Assembly: GCF_018881795.1 (NCBI RefSeq) | Contig: NZ_JACVPQ010000001.1 | Location: 1,531,305-1,595,304, forward strand | Reading direction: 5' to 3' | Origin: Polynucleobacter sp. MWH-Jannik1A5 | GTDB lineage: Bacteria; Pseudomonadota; Gammaproteobacteria; Burkholderiales; Burkholderiaceae | DNA: 64,000 nucleotides | Shown here: piece by piece, positions 11,021-17,903 of the stretch | Position numbering within the stretch: the first letter of the stretch is position 1 | Layout: every line of letters starts with the position of its first letter | Notes under the pieces: generated by a model | The model's database searches: none | The model's input: the letters and a program-made list of their open reading frames with translations, nothing else | Told to the model about the DNA's origin: nothing | Translations under genes and position numbers: made by a program

Positions 11021-11107
11021 TGGTGCCCAGGAAGGGACTCGAACCCCCACAACCTTACGATCGCCAGCACCTGAAGCTGGTGCGTCTACCAATTTCGCCA
11101 CCTGGGC
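11021..11107 (-). tRNA. tRNA-Leu (anticodon CAG)
   Basis: The reverse complement folds as a class II tRNA of 87 nt including encoded CCA. The acceptor stem is GCCCAGG / CCTGGGC. The anticodon stem CCAGC / GCTGG encloses the loop TTCAGGT with CAG at the anticodon. A long variable arm is present, and the T arm has GGTTCGAGTCC. It stands alone between the APC permease and rnr, and no integrase or duplicated 3' end suggests an integration site. Confidence 0.97.
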
Positions 11108-16684: not shown

Positions 16685-17395
16685 ATGAATCAAGATCAAC
16701 TAAAGCAAATGGTAGGCGAGGCGGCTAGAGACGAAGTCCTCAGGTTGCCAGCCGGACAAATTTTGGGTGTGGGCACTGGTTCCACCGCCAATTGTTTTAT
16801 TGATGCGCTAGCTCCGCATAGGGATCATTTTGCAGGCACAGTATCTAGCTCTAACGCAACAACTGATCGCTTGCTCAAGCATGGCTTTAAGGTTCTTAAT
16901 CCAAATGACGTACAAAGTCTTCCTGCTTACGTAGATGGCGCAGATGAAATTGATCCAGCTGGACATATGATTAAAGGTGGCGGTGGGGCACTCACGAGAG
17001 AAAAAATCATTGCCTCCATGGCAAAGCAATTCATTTGCATTTGCGACTCATCAAAGCAGGTGCCAGTGCTAGGCAACTTTGCGCTGCCAGTGGAAATTAT
17101 TCCTCTTGCTCAAGGTGTCGTGAGTCGCGAATTGGAAAAGTTTGGCGGTAAGGTGACTCTCCGCTTAGCAAAAAATACTCGCGCTGATCTCAATCAAACA
17201 CCAGCTGAGCCATTTGTCACGGATAACGGTGGATGGATCTTGGATGTTGCGGGTTTGAAGATCGCCAACCCAATTCAGATGGAAGCGCAAATCAATCAAA
17301 TTGCTGGCGTAATCACCGTAGGCCTATTTGCCAAGGAAAAAGCCAATATTTTGTTGGTGAGTAACGCTGCTGGGGTAGAGCGTCTCGCTCTGTAA
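16685..17395 (+). CDS. rpiA: Ribose-5-phosphate isomerase A
   Basis: The 236-residue enzyme interconverts ribose-5-P and ribulose-5-P. The phosphate-binding loop GVGTGSTAN is at 28-36, DGADEID at 84-90, and KGGGGALTREK at 97-107 with the catalytic Glu106. All match the RpiA family. Length is normal. It is divergent from tal and convergent with the small-RNA candidate, sharing the hairpin at 17405-17431. Confidence 0.96.
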   Translation: MNQDQLKQMVGEAARDEVLRLPAGQILGVGTGSTANCFIDALAPHRDHFAGTVSSSNATTDRLLKHGFKVLNPNDVQSLPAYVDGADEIDPAGHMIKGGGGALTREKIIASMAKQFICICDSSKQVPVLGNFALPVEIIPLAQGVVSRELEKFGGKVTLRLAKNTRADLNQTPAEPFVTDNGGWILDVAGLKIANPIQMEAQINQIAGVITVGLFAKEKANILLVSNAAGVERLAL

Positions 17396-17400
17396 GAAAT

Positions 17401-17431
17401 AAAAAACCCGACGGGGTATCCCCATCGGGTT
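17401..17431 (-). terminator. Intrinsic terminator of the small RNA, shared with rpiA
   Basis: Arms at 17405-17416 and 17420-17431 with a 3-base loop. Read on the minus strand, AACCCGATGGGG pairs with CCCCGTCGGGTT with one U-G wobble and is followed by TTTTTT. Read on the plus strand the same position is an A-C mismatch, though a short T tract (TTGTTTT) also follows, so it may serve rpiA too. Confidence 0.8.
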
Positions 17432-17558
17432 GTTTTGCCATGGTTTGCATGGCGCAGGCGCTCGGAAGGTATTTAGTTCCTTAGCCTATAAGCACATAGA
17501 TGTACTTATTAAGATTGGCTTTCGCCAATGTGGCGGGGCACTATAACTGCCTCACCAC
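17401..17558 (-). ncRNA. Candidate small RNA (~158 nt), unassigned family
   Basis: The minus strand carries all parts of an independent small-RNA gene with no open frame. A TTGACA / TAGGAT promoter with a 16-base spacer (17565-17592) predicts a start at a G near 17558. The transcript can form GTGG...CCAC with inner GGCA...TGCC, a hairpin ATTGGC-GAAA-GCCAAT, and a stem around AGTACAT/ATGTGCT. It ends in a terminator whose stem is fully paired (one G-U) only in the minus-strand RNA and is followed by six U. I considered 6S RNA because of size, but could not see its long closing stem and central bubble. It lies downstream of argA-yggX on the same strand. Confidence 0.6.
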
Positions 17559-17564
17559 GACTTC

Positions 17565-17592
17565 ATCCTACGCTTATCTTTGGCGGTGTCAA
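17565..17592 (-). promoter_or_regulatory. Sigma-70 promoter of the small RNA
   Basis: On the minus strand the -35 element is a perfect TTGACA (17587-17592) and the -10 is TAGGAT (17565-17570) after 16 bases. It lies between the yggX stop and the predicted RNA start, so it cannot serve yggX. Confidence 0.65.
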
Positions 17593-17630: not shown

Positions 17631-17903
17631 TTATTCTGCTGGAGGCACGTAACCTTGTGCCATGTCGGCTCCACCCTCAAAGAAATGCTTCTCTACTTGT
17701 TTTAAGAGGTATTGGCGTGCGCGCGGGTCCGCCATATTGAGGCGATTTTCATTAATCAACATGGTTTGCTGCTTTAACCAACCAGCCCAAGCTTCTTTTG
17801 AGACTTGATTCCAAATCTTTTTACCCAGCTCTCCAGGAAGCGGGGCGAAATCCATACCTTCAGCTTCTTTATTGAGTTTGATACATTGAACCATGCGTGC
17901 CAT
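17631..17903 (-). CDS. yggX: Oxidative damage protection / Fe(2+)-trafficking protein YggX
   Basis: The 90-residue protein has the conserved Cys7 near the start ([10 protein letters not shown]), [19 protein letters not shown] and the C-terminal [18 protein letters not shown] typical of YggX. YggX protects iron-sulfur clusters and limits iron-driven oxidative damage. The start is 23 bases after the argA stop, so the two are probably transcribed together. Confidence 0.95.

Follow-up and report, generated by a model that had tools for sequence, protein, structure and literature searches.

A conserved RNA between yggX and rpiA in Polynucleobacter is probably a free-standing HRC-28-1 small RNA gene

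The gap between the convergent genes yggX and rpiA of Polynucleobacter sp. MWH-Jannik1A5 holds a structured element on the yggX strand, which raises the question of whether it is the tail of the yggX message, an accessory of rpiA or a gene in its own right. The window, the whole stretch of DNA that was analysed, is 64,000 nucleotides long. From 17592 to 17401 its minus strand carries a promoter, TTGACA-16-TAGGAT, followed by six structured units: P1, P2, P3, P4/P5, P6 and the terminator (Table 1). The initial annotation had sited an RNA gene between yggX and rpiA, and NCBIfam confirms both neighbours, yggX through NF003817/PRK05408 at 142.4 bits against a cut-off of 74. A tRNA gene is found on the same strand at 11024-11107.

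Comparison with homologues makes it likely that this is a free-standing HRC-28-1 small RNA gene, with its own sigma-70 promoter, an RNA of about 158 nt and an intrinsic terminator. The predicted transcript ends in the T run, at about 17401, and its start is placed at about 17558, 6-8 nt beyond the -10 box; this span of ~158 nt agrees with the length first proposed.

Table 1. Features of the yggX-rpiA locus in window coordinates; both-side changes are counted over 68 homologues
Feature	Coordinates	Strand	Remarks
yggX (PRK05408; oxidative damage protection / Fe(2+) trafficking protein)	17631..17903	-	Upstream, same strand; NCBIfam
-35 hexamer TTGACA	17587..17592	-	TTGAC[AGT] in 67/68 homologues
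-10 hexamer TAGGAT	17565..17570	-	TAGGAT in 61/68 homologues; position unchanged in 67/68
RNA body as modelled (R1/R2)	17401..17562	-	Covariance models; fold z -6.94
Hairpin P1, apical A-G-NNNNN-G-U	17530..17558	-	8/10 pairs changed on both sides; 97.7% of cells paired
Hairpin P2, GAAA tetraloop	17516..17527	-	3/4 pairs changed on both sides
Hairpin P3, conserved AUCUAU-type tip	17489..17508	-	7/8 pairs changed on both sides
Stem P4, enclosing P5 (17464-17480)	17456..17487	-	Both-side changes 4/4 (P4), 4/4 (P5)
Hairpin P6	17437..17453	-	5/6 pairs changed on both sides
Intrinsic terminator	17405..17431	-	12 pairs, 3-nt loop, T-rich tail; begins 9 nt beyond rpiA stop codon
rpiA	16685..17395	+	Convergent neighbour; NCBIfam

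Fold, covariation and coding potential

The fold of the minus-strand RNA has an energy of -70.6 kcal/mol, and none of 200 shuffles folded as well. The plus strand folds less strongly (z -4.21), yet it too was matched by none of 200 shuffles. A structured body with a GAAA-capped hairpin had been described from the window, and both are borne out by the minus-strand fold.

Covariation among homologues had been proposed as a check of these stems. Alignment A1, of 23 sequences aligned without regard to structure (L024 and L002 excluded), has 98.7% of cells paired over the seven-helix structure. Both-side changes fall on 18 of its 46 pairs, against 9.5 +/- 1.3 in shuffles and 2-6 in slid versions of the structure. 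P2 and the terminator (0/10 pairs) have no such changes among these 23 yggX-rpiA copies, P2 being nearly invariant in them; it is the wider set of homologues that supports both, and there five of the ten terminator pairs change on both sides. Both-side changes reach 34/46 pairs in an alignment of 36 sequences and 36/46 among 68 distinct copies (98.2% of cells paired; shuffles 19.4 +/- 1.9, slid versions 9-16), although both alignments were fitted to the model and so lean towards the structure. The stems are conserved among homologues. Alignment A4 left out L002, L008, L014, L015, L019, L023, L075 and L077 of 44 loci, and also L024; A5 comprises the 68 copies chosen among the loci retrieved, without L024, which is cut by a contig end, and with the doubtful L193 counted.

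The best-conserved unpaired letters are the hairpin tips, namely the ends of the P1 loop (67/68 each), the GAAA loop, the P3 tip and the P5 loop. Across the 68 copies we saw no long, unpaired and conserved stretch that could act as a seed.

The RNA is presumably not translated. No open reading frame is common to all 68 copies, while 64 have some frame of at least 12 codons. TTGGCG lies over P2/P3 in 53 copies, and in part of them the TTG frame from about model position 35 (window 17401-17562) recurs as a LAKA...IYVLIG-like peptide. That the RNA is a short message, with some 15 codons translated from a TTG start over P2/P3, is nevertheless very improbable: many of the yggX-rpiA copies would yield a similar short peptide, with at least 12 codons to the stop in 33/53 and exactly 15, in similar letters, in 22, but the frame is stopped within seven codons in 12/53 and has no stop inside the RNA in 8/53, TTGGCG is absent from the other 15 copies, and no ribosome site was noticed by eye upstream. 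As its start sits in stem P2, where the fold explains the letters, we read the frame as a by-product.

Homologues within and beyond the genus

BLASTN found the RNA in 25 of 61 genomes, the window's own included, all of one genus. Covariance model R1 matched 104 of 151 genomes of the genus, counting G162, which has the terminator only. The wider model R2 matched 128 of 186, including a weak match in G595 (E 8.8e-4); most of the 128 were counted from the listing of matches, and 68 copies were aligned. Most of the listed genomes hold one copy. Two are present in G601, a draft of 140 contigs, which could represent mixed strains.

No convincing member was found outside the genus among 150 genomes of the family, 300 of the order and 369 of the class, searched with stricter filters that may lose weak matches. 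All three samples include the window's own genome, and those of the family and order contain other genomes of its genus as well. The outside matches (three in the family, six in the order and four in the class, at 25-38 bits) are not convincing because each has the look of a terminator with unrelated sequence next to it; L121, the strongest of them at 37.8 bits, resembles a coding region's end together with its terminator. True copies were sometimes accompanied by a second match of 23-33 bits; these matches cover the terminator on the opposite strand and were left out of the copy count. We also scanned one genome of each of 84,980 species, in contigs of at least 3,000 bases and perhaps without the window's own record, for the -10 box followed by P1. 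This returned 53 stretches, of which 35 carry the RNA: 26 are titled Polynucleobacter and nine are metagenome-assembled genomes (MAGs) titled Burkholderiaceae bacterium or beta proteobacterium. The remaining 18 look like chance. Plasmids and phages gave no BLASTN match to the RNA.

Two loci stand apart. A 31-bit match, L194, was not accepted as a copy, its letters being unlike HRC-28-1. This stretch (2613-2777, G091:C291) lies near what by eye is a groEL-like gene, has a TTGACA-17-TAATAT of its own along with hairpin-like stretches and an end resembling a terminator, and is perhaps another small RNA or contamination of the MAG. L193 (4253-4423, G602) is a doubtful, degenerate or distant copy at 50 bits whose promoter is not in place.

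At the yggX-rpiA site the arrangement is uniform. In all 56 copies there yggX precedes the RNA on the same strand, at a distance of 49-114 nt, and 6-40 nt separate the end of the RNA from that of the rpiA match, the two being always opposed. The other 12 of the 68 copies have neither gene in the stretch examined (1 to 8.5 kb), and 11 of them have the promoter. Neighbours were read for eight of these stretches (L130 to L134 and L191 to L193), and L072, L074, L075 and L077 were seen within one kilobase; some of the loci come from draft genomes. The RNA at L130 has a PIN-domain gene and a cyclase-like gene (Pfam) as neighbours, and L131 and L134 are alike by resemblance; a search of the window's own genome gave no match to the cyclase-like gene of this second site. 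At L191 the neighbours are HemW and a solute-binding protein, and at L130, L131, L134 and L191 a gene lies upstream of the RNA on the same strand. The neighbours are AzlD and LysR at L132, and an HD-domain gene and a TctC-type receptor at L192. TRAP transporter-like genes were noted by eye near L133, where about 0.7 kb upstream was seen. The nearest upstream gene or reading frame points away from the RNA at three of these sites (LysR at L132, an open reading frame at L133 and the TctC-type gene at L192), so the RNA cannot be its 3' end there. A similar fold was obtained for three of the copies at other sites (z -5.4, -4.95 and -6.4).

The history of the yggX-rpiA site was read from a midpoint-rooted RpiA tree of 63 of 73 loci, comprising 46 positives, 16 negatives taken from the genomes with no match, and G011, which has its copy elsewhere; ten one-kilobase loci were dropped because their piece of rpiA was too short. 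All positives and G011 fall in one crown group together with two lone negatives, L090 and L091, and the other 14 negatives fall outside it. This pattern, taken from the topology with no support values read, fits one gain at the yggX-rpiA site and at least two losses. One of the losses is visible in G162 (L091 / L078), where the RNA body is deleted and the terminator is kept directly after the yggX stop.

Promoter, terminator and the neighbouring genes

The TTGACA-16-TAGGAT promoter claimed for the minus strand is present. It scores 10/12, the best of six promoter-like sites between 16000 and 19000. Since six sites are within chance for that interval (4.4 +/- 2.1 in shuffles), we examined its conservation among homologues. 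TTGAC[AGT] with a -10 hexamer ending at a fixed position relative to the RNA occurs in 67/68 copies, the spacer being 17 nt in 50 and 16 nt in 17. As a control, a score of 9/12 was reached in 51 of 1360 letter shuffles of the homologues' upstream sequences. The flank farther upstream is mostly variable among the 56 yggX-rpiA copies and less so among the remaining 12, several of which are close relatives. The sole exception to the promoter is L193, which also has the weakest body, at 50.2 bits.

These observations bear on the suggestion, made by the authors who described HRC-28-1, that it may belong to the 3' untranslated region of the upstream gene (PMC8632094, as described in the accessible part of the paper). 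The element would then have no promoter of its own and would protect the yggX message or yield a processed RNA. The constant position of yggX fits this, as does the gap between yggX and the RNA, which has no terminator-like site in 55 of 56 copies. In G162 the hairpin retained behind yggX probably ends that gene; G112 has a different terminator there. Read-through from yggX is thus likely, with a processed product possible, and the terminator is probably shared with yggX. Against an origin solely in the yggX message stand a promoter fixed in 67/68 copies while the flank beyond it varies, and 12 copies with no yggX in the stretch examined, three of them behind a divergent gene. We regard that origin as distinctly unlikely. 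The fixed promoter, the copies away from yggX and rpiA, and the loss of the body with the hairpin retained favour an independent gene, so comparative sequence data support the initial proposal that the minus strand holds an RNA gene complete with promoter and terminator. Sequence comparison shows the structure, the constant promoter, the presence of copies elsewhere and the losses; transcription is what we infer from them.

The terminator also raises the question of whether the element serves rpiA, convergent transcription and a shared hairpin tuning that gene by antisense or interference. The RNA ends close to rpiA and opposed to it at every yggX-rpiA copy, and the hairpin folds on both strands. 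It had been described as fully paired only in the minus-strand RNA. The terminator scan did report the hairpin at 17431-17405 on the minus strand only, but on the plus strand 17405-17431 still folds, with mismatches, so that it is strand-specific in degree rather than absolutely. In 23/23 yggX-rpiA copies of A1 the terminator keeps a U-G wobble, which turns into a C-A mismatch when the rpiA strand is read and weakens the hairpin in that direction. The terminator may also end rpiA. As an account of the whole element we give this little credence, with 12 copies having no rpiA in the stretch examined and 31 of the 36 covarying pairs falling outside the shared hairpin.

As an independent gene, the element would work as follows. 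The sigma-70 promoter would start an RNA of ~158 nt, which would fold into five structured units and end at the intrinsic terminator, and the same terminator would probably also end the yggX message read through from upstream.

Possible function and relation to known RNAs

There is good support for an ordinary type of bacterial small RNA gene here. We tentatively go further and suggest an autonomous regulatory RNA gene that has settled at several unrelated sites within the genus, moving with its promoter and terminator and usually present once per genome, and that would represent a class of regulator with no described mechanism. Its product would probably be a regulatory RNA acting in trans, and would do so through the conserved tips of its hairpins instead of a long single-stranded seed. 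Hfq-bound small RNAs end in a run of U. As the genome encodes Hfq (103.5 bits) and this RNA has such an end, it is possibly held by Hfq at its U tail.

With the best-conserved unpaired letters in the tips, loop pairing and protein binding are both possible. A purely protein-binding RNA or sponge, like 6S or CsrB, is one form that the independent gene could take. The conserved tips fit it, as does a structure kept while the sequence changes, but no repeated GGA-type sites were noticed by eye and there is no 6S match, and we think it rather unlikely.

The initial annotation had suggested 6S RNA as a possible identity. Rfam gave no RF00013 match in the window, and the 6S RNA of the genome lies elsewhere (C1:265099-265317, 58.1 bits). 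The RNA is like 6S in size, but its fold has no long closing stem. No family of Rfam 15 reached its gathering score in 17401-17592, the best weak E-value being 0.017. Anti-hemB, Burkholderia RNA 7 (RF02837), has a weak match of 19.7 bits, against a gathering score of 49.5, at 17398-17466, which covers P6 and the terminator end and excludes the 5' hairpins P1-P3.

Small RNAs with their own promoter inside or after the 3' end of a gene are known, for example DapZ and MicL. The locus resembles this type, with a promoter just past the upstream reading frame and a shared terminator. Unlike that type, it also has copies away from the upstream gene.

The view that the RNA belongs to no known family thus holds for Rfam 15, but a motif in the literature fits it. 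HRC-28-1 was described in 2021 in RNA Biology from 33 examples, mostly in Polynucleobacter, with a PRK05408 gene upstream, rpiA downstream and always opposed, and six stems of which the last is an intrinsic terminator (PMC8632094, accessible part). The name was not found beyond that paper in the literature searched. Our locus shares the genus, the PRK05408 gene upstream and the opposed rpiA downstream, and has six stems if P4/P5 is counted as one; on genus, neighbours and stem description the RNA therefore fits HRC-28-1 (PMC8632094). The motif was already known, and interpreting it as a small RNA gene probably corrects the published suggestion: taken over the whole family, a 3'-untranslated nature is probably mistaken. 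Read as a gene, HRC-28-1 can be tested directly, by deleting it or mutating its promoter, in a genus of freshwater bacteria whose genomes are small. Beside the 33 published examples (PMC8632094, accessible part), we find it in 128 of 186 genomes of the genus, with a conserved promoter of its own and with copies at other sites.
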